Shown here piece by piece: positions 8,391-34,916 of a DNA stretch of 35,809 bases. A program made the position numbers and the translations under genes. The stretch lies in IMG/VR virus record IMGVR_UViG_3300030380_004648, positions 1 to 35,809 of that record. The stretch is one strand, 5' to 3'. The notes under the pieces are model-generated. The model made no database searches. It was given only the letters and a program-made list of their open reading frames with translations, and had not been told where the DNA came from. Positions within the stretch are counted from its first letter, which is position 1, and every line of letters begins with the position of its first letter. This DNA is from a virus.

Positions 8391-8407
8391 TACGAATAAT
8401 TATTCAC
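8386..8407. promoter_or_regulatory. Operator palindrome in the primary immunity region
   Basis: GAATAATTATTC at 8394-8405 is a perfect 12-bp palindrome. It is embedded in a longer inverted pair, GTGAATA (8386-8392) and TATTCAC (8401-8407). Related sites occur at 10596, 11738, 34330 and 34897, always in regulatory regions. Likely bound by one of the phage HTH repressors. Confidence 0.7.
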
Positions 8408-8529: not shown

Positions 8530-9240
8530 ATGGATCAAGAAATACTATTTAATGGTGTTGGCCAAAGGTTGGCCGATTTAATCACACACTCAAATATAAA
8601 GCAGATTGATATTGCGAAAGCATTAGACGTCGACCCGTCTGTCGTCAGTCATTGGATCACTGGCAAGCGGCACATGCCAACTTCAAAGAAAGTTGAATTA
8701 TGCGCTTTTTTGGAAGAAAAAAATGGCGAGGTATTTCCACTAGAGGAATTAAATACATTTGACTGTGTAATACCAATAAAAGGCGAAGTGCAAGACAGCT
8801 GGAATATCATTGATTATGATACATTGTCAAAGGAGAGAAAGTTACGAGTAAAAAATCTTTACTTTCCACCCGATACAGTGGGGTTTATTTTTCAAAATAG
8901 TAACAAATTATATTGGCGACACAATGCAATATGGGTAACTAGGATTGTTCCTGGACGTTGGGTAGATAAAAAGGAAGTACACCCGCACGCTGACTCACGT
9001 TTATGTATGTTAAAAGTAAAAGGCGGCAATAAGTTTCTTGCTGTACCAAACATTGCCGGCAAAAGAACAATTACAAGTGGAGAAGGTCATAAGTCCACTG
9101 TGCCATCATATAATATTGTAACTATGGGGAATGGCGAATTGGTATTGAAAGATGTAGAATTAGACTATGCAATACCAATTATCGCCGGTATACCAAACTG
9201 GCAAATACTTGAAAAAGTATTCCACCCCAATCTTGATTAG
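8530..9240 (+). CDS. CI-like HTH repressor (236 aa)
   Basis: The start is ATG 8530 (MDQEILFNGVGQ), with GGAG at 8519-8522. A lambda-type HTH is visible at about residues 25-46 (KQIDIAKALDVDPSVVSHWI). The C-terminal half reads as beta-rich, S24-like in outline, but I see no convincing catalytic Ser/Lys pair, so autocleavage is uncertain. It diverges from the Cro-like gene across a palindromic operator, as expected of the lysogeny repressor. Its stop codon overlaps the integrase stop by two bases on the opposite strand. Confidence 0.8.
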   Translation: MDQEILFNGVGQRLADLITHSNIKQIDIAKALDVDPSVVSHWITGKRHMPTSKKVELCAFLEEKNGEVFPLEELNTFDCVIPIKGEVQDSWNIIDYDTLSKERKLRVKNLYFPPDTVGFIFQNSNKLYWRHNAIWVTRIVPGRWVDKKEVHPHADSRLCMLKVKGGNKFLAVPNIAGKRTITSGEGHKSTVPSYNIVTMGNGELVLKDVELDYAIPIIAGIPNWQILEKVFHPNLD

Positions 9241-10514
9241 ATAAATCCCGGATCGATTTCCGTATTAACGCGCTTCTTCACTAACTGATCTTGGTCAAAT
9301 TTAGTGTATACAGAAGCCGTTATTTGGGATCCAATCGTGTGCCCGATAAACTGCTGTAGCTGTTCCTCTTTTACCTTAGTAAATTGATCGCCGAGCCGGT
9401 GTCTAAAATTACATACATAAAATCTACGGAAAGCATGGAAGCCATATCCCTTTGGGTTTCTTGGGTAATTAAAAGGGTATTGTTCGTCGTTATGATATTT
9501 ATCATATACCTTCGCCCATAACTTAAGATATCTATTCCGTATACCACGATCAGAGAAGCTATAGCCTTGTGGAGTCTGTAAAATCCAGCGCCACCTATTA
9601 TCCTCGCTCTTATCTGCCTTTCGCGTTTCACTATGCACCTTTTCTATGTAAGTCATTTCTTTATCGCCAAGCAGTCTTTTCTTTTGCAATAGTAATTCTG
9701 CAAGAAAATTATCGTTGAGGTCTATCTTTCGATATTCATCTTTACGTCCAACATCAGAAGGCTTGATCTTACTATTCTTAATTTTTAAGTACGCGTGCTC
9801 ATTTCGTGGCTGCACGATATCGTCCCAGGTAAGCTGTCGTATCTCATTGATACGTGCCCCAGTATATGCAAGCAAAATGATAAGCAGTCTATCTGTAGGA
9901 TTGTCCGCTTCCCTTATGAGGCGTTTTATGGGGTGGTGTTGGTTGTTCACACCCGCAGGTAGTTCTAGTTCAAAATAACCTACTTCCTGCTTCTCGGCCT
10001 TCGGCACTGGCTTGGTGGAAGGGTGCGCCTTCAATGGATTGTGCCGTACGTTGTATTGCTTCTTTGTAAGTGCAAAATCAAGAAGCTGCTGCATTTTCTT
10101 CTTTACACGATTTCGTTTGTCGACTCCGCGTTCTTCCTCGATCTTCTTCAGTATGTTATGGACGTCATCAAACTCTAAATTGTTGTAGTTTTTTATGTGT
10201 CCAAAATACTCGTTACAGTTTTTCAGTAACACACTATCTTCTTCATACGTACGTGCCGATAATTTTTCTTCTCTCCTCATAGTCATAAAATCTTGAGTCA
10301 GATAATAGAAGAATTGATCTTGTTGCACTTCAGATAAATCATCGAAAAGTTTTGTCAAAAAATCTTCTTCTGATATATTTGCAGGCTTTTGTTTCTTCTT
10401 TTCAACACCCATAATATCGTCCCAACGTGCACGTTGTCCGTTGAATTCATATTTGATTATGAGGTCGTTTTTTTGGTAAGTCCTCGAGTGTGAGGTTTCA
10501 TTTATTAAGTTCAT
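9237..10514 (-). CDS. int: Tyrosine recombinase integrase (425 aa)
   Basis: Phage integrase of the lambda family. The catalytic set is complete: Arg221 in TGARINEIRQLTW, His360 and Arg363 in HAFRRF, His392 in GHTIGS and the nucleophile Tyr403 in SVYTKF. An N-terminal SAM-like core-binding domain (about 85-155) precedes. It is encoded next to attP (10794-10836), which it should recombine with a host tRNA-Ser gene. A GCGGAG site precedes the start. An operator-like palindrome at 10596-10607 lies 80 bases upstream. Confidence 0.93.
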   Translation of the reverse strand: MNLINETSHSRTYQKNDLIIKYEFNGQRARWDDIMGVEKKKQKPANISEEDFLTKLFDDLSEVQQDQFFYYLTQDFMTMRREEKLSARTYEEDSVLLKNCNEYFGHIKNYNNLEFDDVHNILKKIEEERGVDKRNRVKKKMQQLLDFALTKKQYNVRHNPLKAHPSTKPVPKAEKQEVGYFELELPAGVNNQHHPIKRLIREADNPTDRLLIILLAYTGARINEIRQLTWDDIVQPRNEHAYLKIKNSKIKPSDVGRKDEYRKIDLNDNFLAELLLQKKRLLGDKEMTYIEKVHSETRKADKSEDNRWRWILQTPQGYSFSDRGIRNRYLKLWAKVYDKYHNDEQYPFNYPRNPKGYGFHAFRRFYVCNFRHRLGDQFTKVKEEQLQQFIGHTIGSQITASVYTKFDQDQLVKKRVNTEIDPGFI

Positions 10515-10588
10515 GTTTTTAACTCCGCTGTTTATTGGTCAAGTAAAACATAAATTGTCATTCTCTGCAATATTAACCGTATCAATAG

Positions 10589-10607
10589 TTTCAACGAATA
10601 AATATTC
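10589..10607. promoter_or_regulatory. Operator-like palindrome upstream of int
   Basis: GAATAAATATTC (10596-10607) has the same five-base arms (GAATA/TATTC) as the other operators. On the minus strand it is followed at once by TTGAAA (10589-10594), exactly as the terL promoter site is followed by TTGACA. A convincing -10 box is not clear (TATTGC after 16 bases is the best). Confidence 0.5.
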
Positions 10608-10719
10608 ATGTGGACAAAACAAGTCCGGTGCAGTAATTTATCGATACCATTTTGCCTTTGGCAATTGAGTACACCGGTCTTTTTAACGTGGTACAGAATT
10701 GGCAAAAATAGCTATTTTT

Positions 10720-10764
10720 TTGGCAAATCGATAGTAATGGCATAATTTATATTTCTCCTATAAT
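10720..10764 (+). promoter_or_regulatory. Possible promoter reading into the attP tRNA half
   Basis: A perfect TATAAT stands at 10759-10764, thirty bases before the tRNA-like start. A matching -35 box is not obvious; TTGGCA at 10720-10725 with TAATTT at 10743-10748 (17-base spacer) is an alternative. After integration this DNA would lie upstream of the host tRNA-Ser gene and could replace its promoter. Confidence 0.35.
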
Positions 10765-10793
10765 CGTTATCAGACAACGGTTTAGAGAATTTA

Positions 10794-10836
10794 GGAGGGG
10801 TGGCTGAGTGGTTGAAAGCACCGGTCTTGAAAACCG
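10794..10836 (+). other. attP core: 5' half of tRNA-Ser(UGA)
   Basis: Forty-three bases read as the 5' half of a tRNA-Ser: acceptor strand GGAGGGG, TG, D stem GCT/AGC with its loop, then an anticodon arm CCGGT-CTTGAAA-ACCG with anticodon TGA. Similarity stops at the last anticodon-stem pair, and no variable arm, T-arm or acceptor 3' strand follows, so it is not a functional tRNA. It lies 280 bases from int. This is the expected identity segment for integration into a host tRNA-Ser gene, here at the 5' half, so the phage supplies the new 5' end. Confidence 0.82.
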
Positions 10837-11035
10837 AATAATTATGCGCTTCAACTACACAAATCAAGGTTTTCTCCCAAATAAATTGCAAATCTGCAAT
10901 TCTCCTTAGATATGATTTTGGCAAGATACTGCACTGGTCATACCGTTGTGTAGACAACATCTCAAGCATATTTCATGCTGTATTGAAAGTCAACAATTAT
11001 TTGACCGGTGCTCTGAAATAGACTAGCTGATAAAG

Positions 11036-11698
11036 TTATGAAAAATTATTCGGGATTACCACTTGTGTAATTTTGTAGATAGAATTGATCTCTTTGTCCT
11101 TATATCGTCGTGGCTCGTCATCGCCATGATCGACAATAAATACGTCATCTTCTTTTGTGATTACTGTACCCGGTTGAAACGACCGTTGAACAACATCTTC
11201 GACAATCTTACCCTTGTTTTTCTTTACAGTATATTCCATACAAATGAATACAAGATCACGATTAAATTCATACGGTGCATTTGGTACGGAAAGCGCTAAC
11301 ATATCTTTTTGCAGCCACTTATATGTGTACGGAACACGTATAGCAATCATATCAGTATCGTTAATTAGATCGACCTTATCGATGTAATCTAGGCTTAAAT
11401 CTTGATCGTGTATGATTGTATTTTCGCTGCCTACTGTTAGCTTGCTTATCTTAGTTGCTGATATCTGTAGATTAATATTTGGTATCTCCAAGTTCATATC
11501 TTTGTATATACTATTTACTGGTATACCCAGTAGCCTTGACATACGTTCAACGATCTCGGGATTTCTTGGTTTTTGTATACCATTCTCATAGCGCATATAG
11601 GTCGCTTGTGAAACGCCTACACTATTGGCCATATCTATTTGTGTTATACCTTTATCCATGCGACACTGTGCGAGTCGCGTAACTTTTCTTACACCCAT
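11036..11698 (-). CDS. Second HTH repressor with S24-like C-terminal region (220 aa)
   Basis: An XRE-type HTH occupies residues 18-50 (GITQIDMANSVGVSQATYMR). The C-terminal domain (about 110-215; IAIRVPYTYKWL, DLVFICMEYTV, DDVFIVDHGDDEP) has the strand pattern of LexA/CI dimerisation domains, but no clear cleavage site or Ser/Lys dyad. GCGGAG precedes the ATG at 11698. It diverges from a Cro-like paralogue at 11785 across an operator palindrome, so this is a second complete repressor/Cro pair. Which repressor governs which operator cannot be read from sequence. Confidence 0.8.
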   Translation of the reverse strand: MGVRKVTRLAQCRMDKGITQIDMANSVGVSQATYMRYENGIQKPRNPEIVERMSRLLGIPVNSIYKDMNLEIPNINLQISATKISKLTVGSENTIIHDQDLSLDYIDKVDLINDTDMIAIRVPYTYKWLQKDMLALSVPNAPYEFNRDLVFICMEYTVKKNKGKIVEDVVQRSFQPGTVITKEDDVFIVDHGDDEPRRYKDKEINSIYKITQVVIPNNFS

Positions 11699-11737
11699 GA
11701 TTTTTTCTCCGCAAATTATACATTTAGAAGTGTATAC

Positions 11738-11778
11738 GAATAATTATTTATTGCAATAAAAATCGGCAATCATAAAAT
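11738..11778 (+). promoter_or_regulatory. Operator and leaderless promoter of the second Cro-like gene
   Basis: GAATAATTATTT (11738-11749) matches the operator at 11 of 12 bases. Next come TTGCAA (11751-11756), 16 bases and TAAAAT (11773-11778). Transcription would start about seven bases later, on the A of the ATG at 11785, giving a leaderless mRNA like lambda cI from PRM. No ribosome-binding site is present there. TATAAT (minus strand, 11717-11722) may serve the divergent repressor. Confidence 0.5.
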
Positions 11779-11784
11779 GTTAGT

Positions 11785-11997
11785 ATGAGATTGAAAGATT
11801 ATTTATTAGAAAATGATATAACAGCAAAAGATTTTGCATTATTACTTAGTGTTTCGCCTAGTAAAGTTTCACGCTGGTTGAATGGAAAACATGACATATC
11901 TTTACAAGACGCTTATCGTATACTGTATTTCACAAACGGCTATGTAACACCTATAGATATGCTGGGAGATGTAGATATAGACGAGGTATACCATTGA
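11785..11997 (+). CDS. Cro/CI-like HTH protein, paralogue of the gene at 8117 (70 aa)
   Basis: The protein (MRLKDYLLENDITAKDFALL...) carries an HTH at about residues 14-33 (KDFALLLSVSPSKVSRWLNG) and the C-terminal TNGYVTPIDM also seen in the Cro-like protein at 8117-8347. No Shine-Dalgarno sequence precedes it; a promoter at 11751-11778 would make its message leaderless. It heads a three-gene plus-strand operon with the resolvase-like and zinc-ribbon genes, its stop overlapping the next TTG start. Confidence 0.8.
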   Translation: MRLKDYLLENDITAKDFALLLSVSPSKVSRWLNGKHDISLQDAYRILYFTNGYVTPIDMLGDVDIDEVYH

Positions 11998-12425
11998 CCA
12001 ATTCACGATCTATTGGACGATCCTTTGAATATAAAATCATTGGCATGCTGACAGATGAATTAGGCACGTCTTTTAATTTCAAACGTGATATTGAACAATA
12101 TAGGGAGAGAGATTTGGGAGATGTTATCTCCGACAATGATAAGTGGCCATTTCTAATAGAATGTAAAAGACGTAAGAATGGCACGACTTATAGTTTGGAT
12201 TGGGTGGATCAAGCAAAAAGAGCAGCCGAGAAGTGTAATAAAATACCGGTCGTTATTTATCAATTAATGAGATCGCCAGTACGATGTGTTGTTGATTTGA
12301 ATGTGATATTAAAGGCATTTGACTGTCCAACTGCTTGTTTCCACGAAAACTTGATAGAATTACCGTTGGAAACTTTTTGTATGATAGCAAGGGAGATAAT
12401 GCAAGATGAAGTGTTGGCACTGTAA
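11994..12425 (+). CDS. PD-(D/E)XK Holliday-junction resolvase-like nuclease (143 aa)
   Basis: Small archaeal-Hjc-like/phage PDDEXK fold: E12 in GRSFEYK, D43 in LGDV, E56 and K58 in the core IECKRR, and Q73 in WVDQAKRAAE. Enzymes of this type cut recombination branches or branched concatemers before packaging. It starts with TTG at 11994, overlapping the previous stop (TTGA), with GAGG seven bases upstream. An alternative is a restriction-type nuclease, but the size and the E-x-K/Q pattern fit resolvases best. Confidence 0.75.
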   Translation: MTNSRSIGRSFEYKIIGMLTDELGTSFNFKRDIEQYRERDLGDVISDNDKWPFLIECKRRKNGTTYSLDWVDQAKRAAEKCNKIPVVIYQLMRSPVRCVVDLNVILKAFDCPTACFHENLIELPLETFCMIAREIMQDEVLAL

Positions 12426-12582
12426 TACAGAATTAATTTGGGGTGGGGATCACGATTGTGATGAACACGATTTTATGATGGTTACCAATCTGTCGTGTCC
12501 GTCATGCGACGCTTTCGTGCTTGTATATTTACCAGAGGATTTAGATAGCGACGATCAAGATAAGCAAGATAGCAAAAGCTAA
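12406..12582 (+). CDS. Zinc-ribbon protein with acidic tail (58 aa)
   Basis: Two knuckles, CWHC (residues 3-6) and CPSC (31-34), frame a His/Asp-rich loop (GGDHDCDEHD); the C-terminus is a long acidic tail (LPEDLDSDDQDKQD). The pattern is familiar from small proteins of uncultivated marine phages, without a known role. The start overlaps the resolvase end by 20 bases, with GGGAG upstream. Its last 42 bases overlap a minus-strand microgene. Confidence 0.65.
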   Translation: MKCWHCNTELIWGGDHDCDEHDFMMVTNLSCPSCDAFVLVYLPEDLDSDDQDKQDSKS

Positions 12583-12684
12583 AATTTTACCTTTCTTGTT
12601 CATTTTTCTTTTGCACTCACAAGGAACAATGTCAGTGAATTTGTCTAGTATTTTTATATATTGTGTTTTTATTTTATCTATCAT
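12541..12684 (-). CDS. 47-aa membrane microprotein, last gene of the late operon
   Basis: ATG at 12684 on the minus strand, ten bases after the previous stop, TAA at 12541-12543. The N-terminal half is basic and carries CEC, followed by a C-terminal hydrophobic segment (ILAFAILLILIVAI), suggesting a C-tail membrane anchor. It has a weak ribosome-binding site. It overlaps the convergent zinc-ribbon gene by 42 bases. A lysis-related function is possible by position only. Confidence 0.45.
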   Translation of the reverse strand: MIDKIKTQYIKILDKFTDIVPCECKRKMNKKGKILAFAILLILIVAI

Positions 12685-12693
12685 TTTTTTTCT

Positions 12694-13116
12694 CTATCTT
12701 AATGGGTTTGAATTGTTGAGTTCTATTTCTTCGATCTCAAGTTTTAAGAGTTCTAATTCTTTTGTATTGACCGATACTATTGTATGAGTTTCTGAGAGTT
12801 CACTTTTTATTGTTGCTATTTCAGTATTTATTTCTCTTACTTGCTCGGTCTGTCTATTAATTAATACGTCCTTTGCGGAGTCTATTTTATCCAGGAAGCC
12901 GTCTTGTCTTGCGATCAATCCGTTTTGTACTTCATCGATCTTTTCGTATACTGGTTGCAGATCGACTGTTTGCTCTACTATGTATTCTCTTTGCTCTAAT
13001 TGTGAAAGGCGATTTTCAAATACACCCCAAGCGTAAAAGCCACCGCCTAGAACAGTAGTAGATGAAATTACGGCTATCAACGCTGAGTAATATTTTTTAA
13101 CAAAAGCTAGTTCCAT
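12694..13116 (-). CDS. Membrane-anchored coiled-coil protein (140 aa)
   Basis: One transmembrane segment near the N-terminus (YSALIAVISSTTVLGGGFYAW, residues 10-30) is followed by a long heptad-rich coiled coil (residues 33-135, for example LKLEIEEIELNN at the end). The topology resembles an inner-membrane spanin or another envelope-spanning phage protein, but no family is recognised. It overlaps the upstream gene by 10 bases in the lysis-region end of the late operon. Confidence 0.65.
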   Translation of the reverse strand: MELAFVKKYYSALIAVISSTTVLGGGFYAWGVFENRLSQLEQREYIVEQTVDLQPVYEKIDEVQNGLIARQDGFLDKIDSAKDVLINRQTEQVREINTEIATIKSELSETHTIVSVNTKELELLKLEIEEIELNNSNPLR

Positions 13117-14612
13117 TTTAATCTCTCAATTTCCTTTTTAAGTTGTGATTGTTTTTCTAAGTTTATGTTGACGGCCTTTTTATGTTCTTCCATAGGATCA
13201 ACTATGAAGGCAGTCTGTTGAACAAAAAAATCGGCATTATCAAGAATAATTGGTTGATCTAAGTAAACATCTTTTACTTCATAAAATTCACGATCAATGA
13301 GTAATGGCTGATCTTTCAGTATACCTTGTAAAGTTTTTGCGGTTTGCAACAAATATTTGTCGATATCTTTTACAACGACTTCCTGCACCACTAGATCAAG
13401 TGAAGGATTTATGGAATCTGTTACTACCTCTATGCTCTCTTTCGGCTCTTGTAGCGCTTCTGTGAGCGAAAAATTTTCAGTTGCTAAATCTTCGCTAGGC
13501 ATTTCTTGGATTTCTTCTGTTGTTTCCTCTACAAATTCAGTTTCTTCAAATTCTTCTTCGTTTCCTTCTTCAATCACGTCATCGCCCTCCCCTAAGAAGA
13601 TAGGCGCTTCTTCTTCATCTTCAAAAAATGGCATAGCTTCGATTGACTCAAACTCGTACATCAACGGTGTGGTATCAGTATCTTCAAATAAAAACTCTGG
13701 AGCAAATTCCATAAAGGGCATGTCGTCGTATGATGTATCTATTGGTTCATCATATATAAGTTCGAAGTTATCAAAATCATCATCAATATAAAATTCACTG
13801 AAATCATCTATCCACTCGTCTACGTCAAAATCTAGGTTCTGTTCTATATCAAACAAATCGTTTGCCATTTCATCAAAGGTTGCATTATCAAATATAAATT
13901 CTTCGTAAGTCATCACTAGGCTAGCACCTAATAAATTTGGGCCTTGTTGTGATTGATTGGTGTAATTATTGTCAGTAGCAGTCCATGACCAATCTACGTT
14001 GTTTGCGCCAACATCAGTAAAGATCAAAGTATCTGTATATTGTCCACAATCGGCTGTAACACCAGTCGAGTTAGTGCCAGGATAACCATTACAATTACCT
14101 TGAAAACCACTGATCTCCGTTCGTGTTTGTGTAACTGTAGATAGGACATTATTAGCATTATCTTTCAAAGTAATGGAAATACTATGTGAGTCGTTTGCAC
14201 CACCTTTAGACTCGCAATTACCTTGATTACTCTCACAATTTGCTACGTCGATATTGCTTTCTAAAGTGATCCCATTATCCAGCATGGTTTGTGTAATTGT
14301 ATCGCTATATAGTTTTATATTATCAGCGGATATTGTCGCTGTACCAGTTACCTCAAAATCTCCACCAACATCATATTTATACCCACAATTAGCTTGTTGT
14401 GCCGGGCATGTTACAGTAAATCCGTTGATATTATTGCCATTGTAAACAACACCACTTCCACCGCTATTTATCATATCAGTAGATGATGAGTTCCAATCTA
14501 CACCACTATTAGTGTTCGGTAATAAATTATCAGTTTGTGCCGCGTGCCCCACACTCATAAACACGCCCGTTAATAACAATAAAGTGCCGAGTCCAATATA
14601 TTGCCATCTCAT
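13107..14612 (-). CDS. Large secreted acidic protein (501 aa)
   Basis: A clear Sec signal peptide opens the protein (basic MRWQY, hydrophobic GLGTLLLLTGVFM, AxA-type end GHA-A at about 24-25). Residues 26-235 are Asn/Ser/Thr/Gly-rich and beta-like with about eight cysteines. Residues 236-390 are extremely acidic (EDEEEAP, EEEFEETEF, EETTEEIQE). The C-terminus is more helical. An exported protein of this size is unusual in a phage late operon. It could act on the envelope at lysis or alter the host surface. Family not recognised. Confidence 0.75.
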   Translation of the reverse strand: MRWQYIGLGTLLLLTGVFMSVGHAAQTDNLLPNTNSGVDWNSSSTDMINSGGSGVVYNGNNINGFTVTCPAQQANCGYKYDVGGDFEVTGTATISADNIKLYSDTITQTMLDNGITLESNIDVANCESNQGNCESKGGANDSHSISITLKDNANNVLSTVTQTRTEISGFQGNCNGYPGTNSTGVTADCGQYTDTLIFTDVGANNVDWSWTATDNNYTNQSQQGPNLLGASLVMTYEEFIFDNATFDEMANDLFDIEQNLDFDVDEWIDDFSEFYIDDDFDNFELIYDEPIDTSYDDMPFMEFAPEFLFEDTDTTPLMYEFESIEAMPFFEDEEEAPIFLGEGDDVIEEGNEEEFEETEFVEETTEEIQEMPSEDLATENFSLTEALQEPKESIEVVTDSINPSLDLVVQEVVVKDIDKYLLQTAKTLQGILKDQPLLIDREFYEVKDVYLDQPIILDNADFFVQQTAFIVDPMEEHKKAVNINLEKQSQLKKEIERLKWN

Positions 14613-14851
14613 GTGCCCTCGCCTATTGTTTCTAATTCACAATGGTGTTTTATTACCAGCTTTTCTTGATTGACATCTTCTGCCTTACCTTCCATGCCAA
14701 AATCTTCATATAATCTTAGTGAGTCTGCATGACCAGTGAGGTTGCAACTATAAAAATCCATAAATTTTACTGAATTAGTAAATTCTGGTAAACAGTCTAT
14801 TTCACCGTCCAGGGAACATATCTTTAAAATTAAAACCCACTTTGCTATCAT
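14609..14851 (-). CDS. Small cysteine-containing protein of unknown function (80 aa)
   Basis: The N-terminus is hydrophobic (MIAKWVLILKICSLDG) and may be a weak signal or membrane segment. Four cysteines (LKIC, DC, YSC, HHC) could form disulfides in the periplasm. Start and stop overlap both neighbours by four bases (ATGA), so it is co-translated with two exported or membrane proteins. No family recognised. Confidence 0.65.
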   Translation of the reverse strand: MIAKWVLILKICSLDGEIDCLPEFTNSVKFMDFYSCNLTGHADSLRLYEDFGMEGKAEDVNQEKLVIKHHCELETIGEGT

Positions 14852-15489
14852 CTTCCACTCGTGTGCATGTTTTGTTGGCTTCTATACTTCTCTAGTATCT
14901 TTTGTTGTTCTTTCCAGATTTCGTAGTCCCCGCGCAATTCGGGCATGGCAATATAGACTCTTTTTGCCGCTTCTCCGATCAATGAATTACCGTTTAGCGA
15001 AATCGGGCAGTAAGTCCCAGATTGGAACATACTGTGCCATACGAGAGGATCAGCTGTACATAAACGGCTGAGTGCTGCTACCTTCATTCCTTGATCGTAC
15101 AACAGTTTACTCATCAATCTCGCTTCGCATAAATCATCTTTTTGTGTTATGCCAGTTGATACACCAAAATTAAATGTGCTTACACCTGCCGACATCGTTA
15201 TGGAGCAAGTCGAGATACCGTTGCTCAACGGTGGCGCACTACTTGGACTAGGACTCGATCGTACATTTGATGTGCTATTTGTTGTGCTGCTTTGATCGAC
15301 TGCTGTAGCGGCACTATAGTTATTGGTAGTGTTACTTTCGTAGCCCCCCTCAATCGCCGTATTCGATCCGCTCGAAGTAGTCTGATTTGTATCTGCTCTT
15401 ACGTCGTTGACAATAACAGCAAGTGTATAGACTACTATGATCGCCCACATAATGTACGCTAATATTTTATCAAATTTTGTTGGTTTCAT
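14848..15489 (-). CDS. Membrane or exported protein with Ser/Thr linker (213 aa)
   Basis: The start at 15489 (MKPTKFDKILAYIMW) overlaps the holin-like gene's stop by four bases; the longer ORF would overlap that gene by 70 bases. A hydrophobic segment (residues 8-27) ends NDVRAD, so it is either a signal peptide or an anchor. A low-complexity Ser/Thr/Asn region (about 32-85) leads to a folded domain with four cysteines (about 95-205). Periplasmic location is likely. It is not a recognisable endolysin: no Glu/Asp-Thr lysozyme, amidase or transglycosylase motif is visible. Confidence 0.65.
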   Translation of the reverse strand: MKPTKFDKILAYIMWAIIVVYTLAVIVNDVRADTNQTTSSGSNTAIEGGYESNTTNNYSAATAVDQSSTTNSTSNVRSSPSPSSAPPLSNGISTCSITMSAGVSTFNFGVSTGITQKDDLCEARLMSKLLYDQGMKVAALSRLCTADPLVWHSMFQSGTYCPISLNGNSLIGEAAKRVYIAMPELRGDYEIWKEQQKILEKYRSQQNMHTSGR

Positions 15490-15908
15490 TTTTTTAACTT
15501 GTTTAGTGTATTCATGCCAAATGACCCTGCTGTTATGGTCAATATGATCCACCACACCTCAGTCGGTGCTTGTTTTAGTATTTCCCAACCCTTTACCATG
15601 TGTGGCTGCGTTGGCTCGAAGAAAGTTGCCGCAATAACCGCACACCAAAAAATTACTAAAAATTCATCTTTAAACGATTTCGACATACCATCTGCTTGTG
15701 CTTTGCGCACATCTGCTTCTGCTTTCGCTATCGCTTTTTTAGCTTCTATTTCTGCATAATCGATTGACTGCCGAGCCGCTATCTCGGCGTTTTTTTGTAT
15801 GGATTTCAGTTCTTGCTTATGCTTTACACCGTCAACGACTTTGGTTACAACTCCCAAACCTATTTTTGCTATGGGGCTTGTTAGTAAGCCTAATAATGGA
15901 AAGGCCAT
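15486..15908 (-). CDS. Holin-like membrane protein, 3TM-type (140 aa)
   Basis: A hydrophobic N-terminus (MAFPLLGLLTSPIAKIGLGV), a charged helical region (35-75) and two C-terminal hydrophobic segments (FLVIFWCAVIAATFF, VWWIILTITAGSFG) match the layout of GTA/phage 3TM holins. Such proteins permeabilise the inner membrane at lysis. It follows a second small membrane protein and precedes exported proteins. The assignment rests on topology. Confidence 0.65.
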   Translation of the reverse strand: MAFPLLGLLTSPIAKIGLGVVTKVVDGVKHKQELKSIQKNAEIAARQSIDYAEIEAKKAIAKAEADVRKAQADGMSKSFKDEFLVIFWCAVIAATFFEPTQPHMVKGWEILKQAPTEVWWIILTITAGSFGMNTLNKLKK

Positions 15909-15909
15909 T

Positions 15910-16110
15910 TTACCCTCCGTTAAATATTCTCATTAAACCTACGATAAGTGCGACACAGCTGCCGATCCATAGTACGCTTTTGACAGCACCGCGACCATAG
16001 GACATTTCTAATTTTAGTTTCATAATATCGTTGCTGTTTTTTTCTACTGACGCGTGAATGTGCTCCAACTTATTAGCAAGGTGGCGCATAGTAATTTCTG
16101 TATCTGACAT
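15910..16110 (-). CDS. XhlA-like small membrane protein (66 aa)
   Basis: A heptad-patterned N-terminal helix (HLANKLEHIHASVEKNSNDI) followed by one C-terminal transmembrane segment (VLWIGSCVALIVGLMRIF) and a short Gly tail is the architecture of XhlA/haemolysin-type phage proteins that cooperate with holins. It directly precedes the 3TM holin-like gene, and its start overlaps the fibre gene's stop codon by one base. Confidence 0.65.
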   Translation of the reverse strand: MSDTEITMRHLANKLEHIHASVEKNSNDIMKLKLEMSYGRGAVKSVLWIGSCVALIVGLMRIFNGG

Positions 16111-17960
16111 TATGTGATCTCTCTATGGTCAGTAATCAGCACATTTGTGCCATCATTACTTGTAAGTCGTAGAAATGAGGTAGTTGTTGGGTCTGCTCCA
16201 CTTCCAAGATTTTGTGGCTTTGTTGACGTTACAGTTGGAAATGTTACTTTATGGTCGCCCTCTATAGAGTAAACTCTTAACTTTTGGTTATTAGCTGTTG
16301 CACCACTTGTTGTATGCTCTGAAACATAATAACTGTCATCATTTTCAAGTATTCTTATGTGTTCAATAGTCGCAGCGTTAGAATCTGCACAAGTATATGT
16401 GCTAGTACCAACTCTTTTTATAGTTCGTAAATCAAATCCACTCTCTAGGAAATAATGATGTATTTTTGTTTCGCCGCTACTAACTGTTTCTTCAATAACA
16501 ACCATGTTAGTGCCGTCTGCGGAAATATCAGATTGTATGAAACCAGTCTTACCACCTCCCCCAAATGCCGCTAAATCAGTACCGACATCAAATGATGATT
16601 CTAAAGCAAGTGTGCTAGTTATATCATAAGCAGAGCTTAGTGTTATTACAAAGTGGCTCGTAAAATCATTTGATGAAGAATTACCATGCCTTTGATTGGC
16701 TAAAAATAATTTTGTACCGTTTGAGTTAAATCTACCCGTAGAGAATAATAATCCAGTGCCACCGCTATCGCCTAATACTGTGTCTAAGTTTACAGAATTT
16801 GCCGCTGTGGTGTTTATAGTGCTGATATTATAATTACTTGTAAGGGCATGTTCGTGTAAATCGTCCCCTCTTATTAGAATTAATTTTGACCCGTCTGCAT
16901 TAAATTGACCACCTTTTTGTGCATTAGTGCTACTCATATCTTTGGATTGAACATGCGAAGCACTGGTAAGCAAATAATTTGTGCTTAAGTTGTATTCGTG
17001 AATTGGTATATTACCAGCGTCCTCCACTAAATAAAATTTACTACCGTCATCATTAAAAAAACTACCTTGTAAATCTTCGCCAGAAGTTGCAATCTGTCCA
17101 CTAAATGATGGGTCTGTTCTGCTGTTTTGTTGTAGTAAATCAAATCTCTTACCAACATTTTTTAGATATAACTCAATGGAGCTACCGGCACTGATATTAC
17201 TATAAGTATAGGTGGTATCACCCGAAAGTGTGTGCGTGAATTGCGTGTTTGCCGACCAATCAATAGCTGTTGATGTACCGCTTAGTGCTGTAGGAGCGGA
17301 GGCACTACCACCACCAAAATATGTTTTTGCGTTGGCGGCTGTAATCTTTCTATTTGTGCCACCTGCTCCGTCATCGACAATAAGCAAGTCAGCGTCAGCA
17401 AGTGTTGTTGTTGCTGTGCCGCCATCAATATCTAAGGCTGTAAGTGGTACTGCTGTAATTGTATTACTTGCACCGCTTATGCTTTTGTTTGTTAGTGTCT
17501 TAGTTGTTTGGGATAAATATGTGTCAAACGTGTCGACAGTTGTTTGTCGCATTGTAGAATTATCGTTGGTAACGATTCCGTCACTTCCTGCAACTGCGGT
17601 AGTTCCGGGAGAAGTGTCACCGTCCATGAGGTTTAGTTCTGCACCAGTTGCGGAAACTGTCGTAGAGCCAATCTGTAGATCGCCGTCCGCAATAGAAACT
17701 AATCCATTACCATTAGGGGTGAGTGTTATGTTTCCATTGGTGTTGGTGCTTGATATAGTATTTGAATCAAGTTGCAGGTTGTCTACCTTGATTGTCCCTA
17801 ATGATGATGTGCCTGCATTAAGATCGGCTAAATGGGACATTAACTCACGTATAGCGTTATTTACACCACTTGGCGACATGCCCTCGTCAATATTTACACC
17901 ACCAACGTCTGTATTACTACCCGCTGTTGCACTATAATCTGATATCGCGTCTTTGCTCAT
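16110..17960 (-). CDS. Tail fibre/spike with beta-propeller-like receptor region (616 aa)
   Basis: The first 50 residues (YSATAGSNTDVGGVNIDEGM, NNAIRELMSHL) match the virion-attachment start of many marine podophage fibres. Residues 60-220 are Asn/Thr/Gly-rich fibre repeats (LTNKSISGASNTITAVPLTA). From about 290, blade-like units recur: FNDDGSKFYLV, FNADGSKLILI, FNSNGTKLFLA, ISADGTNMVVI. This suggests a beta-propeller head for host recognition. It lies at the distal end of the structural genes, just before the lysis genes, as usual. Confidence 0.82.
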   Translation of the reverse strand: MSKDAISDYSATAGSNTDVGGVNIDEGMSPSGVNNAIRELMSHLADLNAGTSSLGTIKVDNLQLDSNTISSTNTNGNITLTPNGNGLVSIADGDLQIGSTTVSATGAELNLMDGDTSPGTTAVAGSDGIVTNDNSTMRQTTVDTFDTYLSQTTKTLTNKSISGASNTITAVPLTALDIDGGTATTTLADADLLIVDDGAGGTNRKITAANAKTYFGGGSASAPTALSGTSTAIDWSANTQFTHTLSGDTTYTYSNISAGSSIELYLKNVGKRFDLLQQNSRTDPSFSGQIATSGEDLQGSFFNDDGSKFYLVEDAGNIPIHEYNLSTNYLLTSASHVQSKDMSSTNAQKGGQFNADGSKLILIRGDDLHEHALTSNYNISTINTTAANSVNLDTVLGDSGGTGLLFSTGRFNSNGTKLFLANQRHGNSSSNDFTSHFVITLSSAYDITSTLALESSFDVGTDLAAFGGGGKTGFIQSDISADGTNMVVIEETVSSGETKIHHYFLESGFDLRTIKRVGTSTYTCADSNAATIEHIRILENDDSYYVSEHTTSGATANNQKLRVYSIEGDHKVTFPTVTSTKPQNLGSGADPTTTSFLRLTSNDGTNVLITDHREIT

Positions 17961-19582
17961 CGAAGTAATCCTCTTTGTTGTTCTTGTTCTTGTTGTTCTT
18001 GATCTTGTAAAAATGCACTGACTGGTCTTTGCGCCAGTAATCCAGTACGTGTACCTGCTGCTATTTCTCTAGGGCTTGCTCCACCGACCAAAGGTAAACG
18101 ACCAGTAAATCTACCAGTAAATCTTGGCGCGTCTATTGCACGTCTTGCTGCACCTATTGCTGAAGCACCCTCCCCAACAATACGCGGACTAACCAAACTA
18201 AAACCACCCACCGCTGTATCTAGGCCACCAACACCCGCACCAACACCACCAACTGCAACGCCACGTAGAAAGTCTTGTGCAATTAAGGGATTGGCTCGTC
18301 GTCCCGCTAACATTTCACGTAAGACTTGTGAATTTGGTAATTCTTCTAGTATTTCTTGCGCTATGTCATCGCCGCGACGTAGTGTATTATCTAATTTTGT
18401 CAAAACTGTCGATCGTGCAGCTGCCGTACCAACTTTTAGTTCTTGTTTTACCGCGTCGATGATCCGACTATCTTTTGCATATTCTTCAAATATTTCAGCG
18501 TATCTAGGATTTTTTTCTGCAATCTTAGTTCTCAGCTTATCCCTAATCGCTGAAAATGCAGCAGCTTCGGGTGTACCAAAATCTTTTGGTGCAAAGTCGT
18601 CCATACCTTGTCTAAGTTCTACTAAATCCTCTAATGTGCCGTCCGACTCTTTTAGAGGATTCATAACCTTAGTATTGATCTTCTTTAGAATTTTATCAGT
18701 AGCTTCGTTCTTCAAAATCTTTCTACCCTGCGACGCTCTGTAATCTGCCACCGATTTTACTATTTCGTCAATCTCGGCTTTTGTAAGTTTTGTTTGTTTT
18801 AGATCAATAGCGGCTGTAGAGTCCTCAAATTTCTTTTTTCTTCTTTTTTTAAGAACACCAAATTGTCGTTCTGCAAACCTTACAATACGTGAGTCTGGTA
18901 TCTTACCCCGCATAGCTGCACGCGCTAAATCTCCTGCGCTCGGATCAGCTAACAGATCAATCGCTTCTTTTTTTATGCCAGTGGTAACACCAAGAACTTC
19001 TGATCCAGCGCGCCCTGCTAACCTTGCAGTTTGACTTATCGGCTCTGTAATTATTCTTGTTGGATCAGTAATCCTACCGGCTCTTGATATTATATCGGTA
19101 GCCTTTCCAGTAGCACCAGCGACTCTAAGACCAGCGCCAGCACCAGTTAAGAACAAACTTAGATCGGCTGCAAAACCTACTGGATTTGTTGCAAAACGCT
19201 CTTTTATTGCTTCGGCACTGCCGTATTGATCTTTTAAGTATTTTTTTAGTTGGTCTACGTTCTGCTCACTTTGTTGTTCGCCCGGTATAAGTTTCGATAT
19301 TAGACCTTCTGATATTGCGCCAATACCTTTTAGAGTTCGTATTGGATTTGTAATTAAACCTACAAACGCGCGGCTCTCTGTTGCAAGATCGGGTAGAAAA
19401 TTACTTGCGGCTCTGGCAAAAACATTTCTTGATTGCTCTCTTTCAGTGCGCTGGTCGCCACGAAATTTTATAAAATCTTCTGTAGCTTTAGCGTATTTTG
19501 GATCACGCTCCTCTGGACTTTTTAACGATTCCCGTCGTAACAGTAATTCTGTATCACGACTAATATTATTAAAATCTACCAT
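17957..19582 (-). CDS. Putative internal virion/ejection protein (541 aa)
   Basis: A long, charged, mostly helical protein with Ala/Gly-rich hydrophobic patches (NPVGFAADLSLFLTGAGAG, GVAVGGVGAGVGGL) that could insert in membranes, and a Gln-rich end (QDQEQQEQEQQRGLLR). It is third of three large genes between the tail-hub region and the fibre, where podophages encode ejection proteins forming the trans-envelope channel. No lytic transglycosylase motif is visible. It overlaps the fibre start by four bases. Confidence 0.6.
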   Translation of the reverse strand: MVDFNNISRDTELLLRRESLKSPEERDPKYAKATEDFIKFRGDQRTEREQSRNVFARAASNFLPDLATESRAFVGLITNPIRTLKGIGAISEGLISKLIPGEQQSEQNVDQLKKYLKDQYGSAEAIKERFATNPVGFAADLSLFLTGAGAGLRVAGATGKATDIISRAGRITDPTRIITEPISQTARLAGRAGSEVLGVTTGIKKEAIDLLADPSAGDLARAAMRGKIPDSRIVRFAERQFGVLKKRRKKKFEDSTAAIDLKQTKLTKAEIDEIVKSVADYRASQGRKILKNEATDKILKKINTKVMNPLKESDGTLEDLVELRQGMDDFAPKDFGTPEAAAFSAIRDKLRTKIAEKNPRYAEIFEEYAKDSRIIDAVKQELKVGTAAARSTVLTKLDNTLRRGDDIAQEILEELPNSQVLREMLAGRRANPLIAQDFLRGVAVGGVGAGVGGLDTAVGGFSLVSPRIVGEGASAIGAARRAIDAPRFTGRFTGRLPLVGGASPREIAAGTRTGLLAQRPVSAFLQDQEQQEQEQQRGLLR

Positions 19583-24897: not shown

Positions 24898-25457
24898 TGT
24901 AGTGTACTCCATTCGGGACTATCTGACACGATCTCTGTCCACGTTTCGTTTCCAGCAGAAACTTCTGTCCACGTTTCTCCGCCTGCCGGTATGTTTGTCC
25001 AAGACTCGCCTAGTATCTCGCCTAATACATCAGCAGTGAGTGTAATCGTTTCACCTGCGGACATTTGTAAGATACGACCGAAACCGCTTGACGCTGCAAG
25101 AGAAATAGTTGAGTCAGCACTTGCTTCTAAAATAATATTGAAACTTGATGTTGCATTTATTGATATTGCAACACTTTCTGATACTGTTTTTATTAGACCT
25201 GCCGCACTACTTTCTGTAATAGCAATCGATACAGCGCCACTGGCAGATAGTATAAGCTGACTGGCACTTGATTCTGTTATTGATATTGTTACTGCTGAAG
25301 CTGCGCTAAGTATTAAACCTGCGGCAGCAGATGTTGTTACTGCCATTGTTACTGCCGCAGCCGCACTATGTAATGTTAGGTTGTCAAGCTCTTCTAAGGT
25401 AAAAGCGTCTAAGCTATCCATGTTACCAAAGGCGTCAAGTTCCTCCAGCGTTGCCAT
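24894..25457 (-). CDS. Repetitive structural protein with six 20-residue repeats (187 aa)
   Basis: Residues about 31-150 consist of six head-to-tail 20-residue units, best seen as SAASAVTISITESSASQLIL and SASGAVSIAITESSAAGLIK. The Val/Ile alternation suggests beta-strands stacked as a solenoid or fibre. The last 40 residues carry a second repeat (ESWTNI, ETWTEV, ETWTEI, PEWSTL). The 60-bp DNA period makes copy-number change by slippage likely. Between adaptor and tail-hub genes, it may be a fibre, decoration or tail-extension protein. Confidence 0.65.
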   Translation of the reverse strand: MATLEELDAFGNMDSLDAFTLEELDNLTLHSAAAAVTMAVTTSAAAGLILSAASAVTISITESSASQLILSASGAVSIAITESSAAGLIKTVSESVAISINATSSFNIILEASADSTISLAASSGFGRILQMSAGETITLTADVLGEILGESWTNIPAGGETWTEVSAGNETWTEIVSDSPEWSTLQ

Positions 25458-34299: not shown

Positions 34300-34342
34300 T
34301 TTGTATCTTATAGTGTTATCGGTGTCAACGAATAATTATTCG
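34300..34342 (-). promoter_or_regulatory. Candidate late promoter with abutting operator
   Basis: On the minus strand: perfect TTGACA (34323-34328), 17 bases, TACAAA (34300-34305). CGAATAATTATTCG, a perfect 14-bp palindrome at 34329-34342, touches the -35 box. The transcript would begin near 34293 and meet the terminator about 70-90 bases later. The rest of 34343-34483 is non-coding and contains a GC-rich patch (34399-34430) with a small hairpin (34413-34426), possibly part of the packaging site. Confidence 0.6.
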
Positions 34343-34887: not shown

Positions 34888-34916
34888 TTGACTTACGAAT
34901 AATTATTCATTATAAA
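34888..34916 (+). promoter_or_regulatory. Near-consensus early promoter of the ardA block with operator in its spacer
   Basis: TTGACT (34888-34893), exactly 17 bases, TATAAA (34911-34916): each box matches at five of six bases. The palindrome GAATAATTATTC (34897-34908) lies inside the spacer, so a bound repressor would exclude RNA polymerase. Transcription would start near 34923 and yield a leader ending in GGAG before ATG 34971. Confidence 0.78.

Follow-up and report, generated by a model that had tools for sequence, protein, structure and literature searches.

What becomes of a host tRNA gene when the phage that integrates into it brings the first half of that gene instead of the last? The question is raised by a marine phage represented by the IMG/VR virus record IMGVR_UViG_3300030380_004648, analyzed here over its whole 35,809 bases (the window). 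The ~520 nucleotides (nt) between its integrase gene, int, and a repressor-like gene, both on the minus strand, contain the 5' half of a tRNA-Ser(UGA) gene. The best explanation, and one that we consider likely, is that this half is the core of a phage attachment site (attP) and that the tRNA-Ser(UGA) rebuilt upon integration is transcribed from a promoter in the left arm of the phage site. The features on which the argument turns are:

10794..10836, plus strand: attP core, bases 1-43 of tRNA-Ser(UGA), from the acceptor 5' strand to the anticodon stem (GGAGGGG...ACCG)
10826..10832, plus strand: anticodon loop CTTGAAA, the predicted crossover region, between inverted ACCGGT/ACCG half-sites
10515..10793: non-coding left arm of 279 nt, which would lie upstream of the rebuilt tRNA
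10737..10764, plus strand: candidate sigma-70-like promoter ATGGCA-16-TATAAT reading into the tRNA half (10/12 match; shuffle P of the -10 hexamer, 0.040)

The tRNA identity of the core is far beyond chance. The exact 43-mer is present in 11 genome contigs, and in every one it makes up bases 1-43 of a complete tRNA-Ser(tga) gene as called by ARAGORN; base 44 is A in the phage and G in all 11 gene copies, so the identity ends at base 43. The window itself contains no complete tRNA gene. Among viral contigs, only two others carry the exact 43-mer, both sister contigs of the same phage (L015 and L016) in which the flanks agree on either side of the core; thus, the 43-mer belongs to the phage itself and does not mark an integrated junction. 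The original prediction, made from the letters of the window, had read this stretch as the 5' half of tRNA-Ser(UGA) and proposed a search of genomes for genes sharing it; all 43 bases hold up, and the search returned the 11 contigs, each with a complete gene. The exact cut points would lie within the CTTGAAA loop, as we infer from the sequence and from the anticodon-loop rule in PMC8371274, a passage of which describes a crossover layout of this kind with inverted half-sites. Separately, a tRNA-like fold of the free attP was considered and rejected as chance: its Rfam tRNA score (28.4 bits) falls under the gathering score of 29 and is aided by a right-arm TTTCTCC able to pair with the acceptor strand, a kind of heptamer that occurs in ~30% of random 100-nt stretches.

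What would recombination at this core produce? Joined in silico, the phage left arm, the core and the host 3' half (attR) give a complete tRNA-Ser(tga) with 11 of 11 host genes; the host 5' flank, the core and the phage right arm (attL) give a complete tRNA with none of the 11, and attP holds none. Because attR alone yields a complete tRNA, the working copy has phage DNA upstream if Int acts here. This is the arrangement that had been foreseen, in which the host 3' half is joined to a 5' half and upstream DNA supplied by the phage, and all 11 in silico junctions reproduce it. The proposed sequence of events is as follows: (i) Int would recombine 10794-10836 with the host tRNA-Ser(UGA) gene, the crossover falling in the anticodon loop; (ii) one junction, made of phage left arm, core and host 3' half, would be a complete tRNA gene with its 5' half and upstream DNA from the phage; (iii) the other junction would keep the host promoter and a dead 5' stub; and (iv) a promoter in the 279-nt left arm, most likely ATGGCA-16-TATAAT at 10737-10764, would transcribe the tRNA in the lysogen. 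On this model, the prophage would control the tRNA. Were a phage promoter to drive the rebuilt gene, every lysogen would depend on prophage DNA for a possibly essential tRNA; loss of the left arm would be costly, which could stabilize the prophage.

If there is a promoter in the left arm, what else could it serve? The TATAAT ends 29 nt ahead of the tRNA start, and the ATGGCA at 10737 precedes it by a 16-nt spacer. On the forward strand, the DNA past the core runs antisense through the repressor gene, and not until 11785 does a forward gene with a family match begin; the putative promoter thus has no obvious phage gene to serve in the free phage. L015 and L016 preserve both the hexamer and its -35 partner even though bases 10772-10774 differ, a comparison of three contigs with little divergence.

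A wider view comes from T7-like cyanophages, which carry the 5' half of a tRNA-Leu gene. A tRNA-Leu pattern built to exclude full genes returned 48 stretches, all halves. Setting aside L229, L231, L240 and L275 (other lineages), L268 (a junction) and three more stretches with less than 75 nt upstream left 40, 30 of them distinct. TAnAnT stands at -25 or -26 in all 30 distinct sites (TATAAT in 11; cyanophage contigs L228-L274), and the same hexamer test at 22 other positions between -70 and -28 gave 0/30 each; because these sites are all relatives, the figure speaks of conservation, not of 30 separate events. Past the matched stretch, a terminator-like hairpin follows at 28-40 nt in 33 of 33 distinct 110-nt downstream stretches (0.8% of shuffles), with stems that differ in sequence. 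The plain reading is that this hairpin simply ends the int transcript. In P-SSP7, it precedes the RNA polymerase gene, so the -10 element is unlikely to serve that gene. A hairpin after the core is also present in L121, L286, SS120-1, S-CBP3 and L229 and was not found in L102, L171, L280, L282, L275 or the window. Searches confined to open-licence papers turned up no account of a conserved promoter and terminator flanking 5'-half sites; in one paper on such sites, the sole mention of a promoter concerns a resistance cassette and the word "terminator" is absent. As a side observation, L268 (positions 1-180, record 2551306554) joins an upstream sequence unlike that of every phage copy to the tRNA-Leu half and the cyanophage right arm; it is an apparent attL with a putative host promoter and a stub.

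Has the same tRNA-Ser gene been entered from its 5' side in a cellular genome? AG-912-F21 (a single-cell-type genome of the OCS116 cluster; locus L006, genome G049), one of the 11 genomes with the 43-mer, carries on contig C13 a 39-nt stub of the tRNA-Ser(UGA) 5' half at 16338 and an intact tRNA at 18928. The ordinary state is seen in a close relative (L014), in which a conserved gene is followed by a short upstream stretch and then the tRNA; that stretch matches C13 11997-12215 at 92.7% and stops 31 nt short of the tRNA start. Another relative (L007) is arranged in the same ordinary way, with an 83.7% match upstream and proteins 95-99% identical across the five main neighboring genes. As the native upstream match stops at C13 12215, the intact tRNA-Ser(UGA) stands 6.7 kb from its native upstream DNA. 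In the insert, 12215-18928, two genes for C-5 DNA methylases come first, then the 5'-half stub, and then a gene for a PIF1-like helicase ahead of the intact tRNA; no integrase was found among the scanned genes (the two methylases and the helicase), a scan that left out the gene at 13394-14800. The 130 nt ahead of the stub and of the intact tRNA are alike (160/173 bases including the half) and unlike the native upstream sequence, which suggests two insertions, each bringing its own upstream arm. Further inserted genes lie in C13 between tRNA-Ser(UGA) and the tRNA-Ser(CGA) at 25223.

Beside the OCS116 stub, TTGCAAATTTGCAA stands at base 91 from the tRNA start; in the phage, the palindrome TTGCAAATCTGCAA stands at base 93, and each is single copy in its own sequence. 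A local alignment of the two right arms reaches only P 0.0575, so that a kinship of the phage and OCS116 attachment sites is no more than suggested. A different candidate, a captured host promoter in the left arm (phage ATAATCGTTATCAGACAAC against the native OCS116 upstream sequence ATAATCATCAGACAAC), was rejected: the likeness reached a best shuffle P of 0.06-0.07 in 24 comparisons, and the match is missing from a sister contig.

How widespread are 5'-half sites? A tRNA-Ser pattern scan of viral contigs, to which the window and L016 were added by hand, gave at least 82 matches. Six of the 82 listed were not called as complete genes by ARAGORN, although L179 among them has the look of a full tRNA that the program overlooked; the other five are 5' halves, from L121, L171 and the three contigs that represent this phage. 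A pattern corrected for one of the stem types found 18 stretches: seven 5' halves (L015, L016, L121, L286, L287, L280, L282) and 11 full tRNAs. An integrase family match accompanies the half in 7 of the 11 half-bearing records searched. In L102 (record G030), a marine phage with a related portal, a tRNA-Thr 5' half adjoins the integrase gene. In L121 (11080-12240), the first base of the tRNA-Ser 5' half is also the last base of the integrase reading frame; the int transcript could therefore include this tRNA.

Related portals were sought in one order and found in 11 of 297 genomes; 10 prophage regions were examined, G1000, with a hit close to the end of a contig, having been left out. Four of the 10 contain a tRNA piece in duplicate, three of the 3' type (His 25 nt, Pro 49 nt, Glu 21 nt) and one of the 5' type (Thr 40 nt), and the other six have no tRNA duplicate; the attachment type thus varies within this portal group. 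The 5'-type prophage (G1043, contig C10, loci L339-L341; portal identity 33%) lies between an intact tRNA-Thr(GGT) at 44823-44749 and an identical 40-nt 5' half at 88756-88717, with its integrase at 87273-88265 and an EPSP-synthase-family gene beyond, outside the prophage. Prophage DNA is on the 5' side of the intact gene, and no third copy of tRNA-Thr(GGT) was found in that genome within 3 mismatches. Apparently, this prophage rebuilt the host's only tRNA-Thr(GGT) with a 5' half of its own.

Several results weigh against a phage promoter driving a rebuilt tRNA-Ser(UGA), some touching the promoter and others the integration itself. The perfect TATAAT upstream of the core, to which the original prediction drew attention, is real (10759-10764), but it is weak evidence by itself: its shuffle P is only 0.040, and the region has 3 promoter-like sites where 2.3 are expected by chance. 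In a -10 test of 17 5'-half loci, the hexamer matched at 6/6 positions in three, 5/6 in four and four or fewer in ten (one with none), and P was 0.05 or below in only 4 of the 17; the test has low power, given that among eight real host tRNA-Ser upstream regions it found a 6/6 hexamer in none and a 5/6 hexamer in one. No strong or consensus promoter match was found close upstream of the rebuilt tRNA in G1043, and the left arm of the OCS116 insertion differs from that of the phage, with no similarity seen. Could the attP be just what it seems and the TATAAT at 10759 incidental, transcription beginning elsewhere in the left arm or the host surviving on another tRNA? We hold this to be unlikely. 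It draws on the modest hexamer P, on the several 5'-half loci that lack a clear -10 and on an alternative TTGGCA/CATAAT pair with a 15-nt spacer at 10720-10746; set against it are the constancy of the hexamer and its partner in the sister contigs and the -10 kept at a similar place in all 30 cyanophage sites. For the window alone, the promoter claim is weak; it gains from the cyanophage comparison and the OCS116 genome, and on these sequences we regard it as plausible but unproven. With the conserved cyanophage -10 and terminator, and with an OCS116 tRNA-Ser gene now separated from its native promoter, an isolated remark becomes a testable prediction.

The points that touch integration come from the search for a host. 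None of the 11 genomes with the exact 43-mer has the phage's integrase, nor was it found, at E 1e-10, in any of 385 alphaproteobacterial and 369 gammaproteobacterial genomes; no lysogen, host or integration junction of the phage was found in the part of known genomes searched, and the prophages joined at tRNA-Ser(UGA) that the original prediction suggested looking for did not turn up for this phage among them. Two phages with distant relatives of the integrase (29% and 32% identity) carry no tRNA fragment. According to part of PMC3861242, marine phages have been assigned to hosts through such tRNA fragments; here, the 43-mer cannot name the host because it is common to OCS116, Rhodobiaceae, Oceanospirillaceae, Pseudomonadales, Aliamphritea and Verrucomicrobia records. 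Our guess at the likeliest host is a marine alphaproteobacterium of the OCS116 kind, given the AT content, a 47-nt match in AG-912-F21 and the right-arm palindrome common to both. Integration might also be transient or vestigial, as in T7-like cyanophages, with stable lysogens rare and tRNA takeover seldom of consequence. This we judge quite improbable. Integration of those cyanophages has been demonstrated while stable lysogens have not been found, as a section of PMC8776855 reports, and the missing prophages of our phage fit the same picture; yet OCS116 shows that inserts with this geometry can be stable at the same tRNA gene, and the window's CI-like repressor, Cro-like gene and repeated operator-like palindrome suit regulated lysogeny. 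The genes in question are:

9237..10514, minus strand: tyrosine recombinase (integrase), 425 amino acids, reading away from the core (PHROG integrase, E 8.9e-24)
11036..11698, minus strand: repressor-like helix-turn-helix (HTH) gene, convergent with the tRNA half
11785..11997, plus strand: Cro-like HTH protein, 70 amino acids

Against Pfam Phage_integrase, the integrase scores E 4.8e-6 and 26.9 bits, slightly below the curated cut-off of 27.1; R221, R363, H392 and Y403 fall in invariant columns of an alignment of 4. The minus strand of the window also encodes head and packaging proteins (portal, major head protein, scaffold, terminase).

Could the fragment be a relic of imprecise excision and not a working site? 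Such an origin has been proposed, in a passage of PMC10134795, for a tRNA-Leu beside the integrase of LUZ100, and we find it very improbable here: all 43 bases are intact in three contigs, with an end exactly in the anticodon stem, and short repeats that resemble the core-type and arm-type sites of integrases cluster around the core. Listed with a palindrome of the right arm, they are:

10623..10630, minus strand: core-type repeat CACCGGAC, 1 mismatch
10657..10664, plus strand: arm-type repeat TTTGGCAA
10672..10679, plus strand: core-type repeat CACCGGTC
10719..10726, plus strand: arm-type repeat TTTGGCAA
10886..10899: right-arm palindrome TTGCAAATCTGCAA; one stands at a nearly equal distance beside the 5'-half stub of OCS116
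10917..10924, plus strand: arm-type repeat TTTGGCAA
10932..10939, plus strand: core-type repeat CACTGGTC, 1 mismatch
11003..11010, minus strand: core-type repeat CACCGGTC, inverted

The exact octamer CACCGGTC has 3 copies in the whole window, all inside 10672-11010. Allowing one mismatch, 5 of the window's 15 sites of this type fall in 10515-11035 (binomial P 1.7e-6; 4e-5 without the core copy); TTTGGCAA has 5 copies in the window, 3 of them within the same interval. We give a next to negligible chance to the reading of the window as integrated or as the product of an assembly junction, with the half as attL or attR: an imperfect end repeat (1-775/35035-35809, 93.8%) shows that the assembly is not perfectly clean, but phage genes lie on both sides of the half and two other contigs have the same flanks.

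That repeat, 775 nt at the contig ends, suggests either a genuine long repeat or a circular genome whose assembly mixed strains. Several small genes near the contig ends are headed by a repeated gene-start leader, TAAACTAGNGGAGAAA ahead of ATG (508, 799, 34940 and 35542).

If a phage promoter takes over the rebuilt tRNA, what happens to the promoter left behind at the other junction? The right edge of the core abuts one of a family of operator-like sites:

10594..10608: operator-like palindrome ACGAATAAATATTCA ahead of int, with one mismatch against the motif
10834..10848: operator-like site CCGAATAATTATGCG overlapping the right core edge, with an exact CGAATAATTAT at 10835; goes to attL only
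11736..11750: operator-like palindrome between the repressor and Cro-like genes

The repeated palindrome, CGAATAATTATTCG, has sites at 8392, 10594, 10834-10848, 11736, 34328 and 34895. Counting both strands, the window has 6 exact copies of CGAATAATTAT at five sites, where 0.04 would be expected; the site at 8392 adjoins an HTH gene, a further site lies at 34328, and the palindrome at 34895 fills the spacer of a TTGACT-17-TATAAA promoter. At 10835, the first two bases of CGAATAATTAT are the last two of the tRNA core, and this 11-mer is kept in the sister contigs. Repressor bound at 10834-10848 could shut off the displaced host promoter, or it could interfere with Int at attL; if so, the operator would tie the repressor to occupancy of the attachment site in the lysogen. 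More broadly, and tentatively, elements that enter from the 5' side may bring with them a portable takeover cassette, in which a promoter precedes the tRNA half and a transcription stop lies past the crossover, such that the displaced host promoter drives a silenced stub; the stop would be the terminator hairpin in T7-like cyanophages and perhaps the repressor operator abutting the core in the window.

How does this site compare with known ones? The classical attP resembles the window in its tyrosine integrase and in a block of identity, 30-45 bp long, that extends to the anticodon region, but its core holds the opposite half, the 3' half, and the host promoter is normally kept (parts of PMC8371274 and PMC10865867); indeed, bacterial tRNAs keep their original promoter after integration with very few exceptions, as stated in a passage of PMC8371274. 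In tRNA-dependent lysogeny of the Fionnbharth type, phage DNA likewise becomes the supplier of an essential tRNA, although there a ~10 bp core is accompanied by a complete phage tRNA gene (as described in part of PMC10865867), whereas the window has a 43-nt core and no tRNA gene. Closer are the pTN3-type archaeal elements, which use the 5' half: the tRNA is separated from its original promoter (a section of PMC5495485) and is said to be expressed from element DNA, namely the integrase promoter (a section of PMC8371274). Their attachment site, however, lies inside int, which is split on integration, whereas the window's int (9237-10514) stays intact, with the core 280 nt upstream.

The closest match is the attP of T7-like cyanophages (P-SSP7, P-SSP2/3 and S-TIP37 type), in which ~40 nt are identical to the first half of a host tRNA and a tyrosine integrase gene is adjacent; P-SSP7 and P-SSP2 also have a TATAAT upstream of the half, and integration has already been demonstrated for S-TIP37 in Synechococcus WH8109. 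The window differs in its target (tRNA-Ser(UGA) instead of tRNA-Leu), in an int gene divergent from the tRNA half instead of upstream and co-directional, and in having a CI-like repressor and lacking a terminator-like hairpin after the core. The rarity implied by the original prediction therefore needs qualifying: the 5'-half layout is uncommon, and a passage of PMC8371274 (citing Williams 2002) says that it is seldom met in bacteria, but it has already been described, both in the tRNA-Leu first half of these cyanophages and in pTN3-type elements. With identity to the first ~40 nt of a tRNA, an adjacent tyrosine integrase gene and a tRNA restored in silico with phage DNA upstream, 10794-10836 is a real 5'-half attP of a kind already known from other phages.
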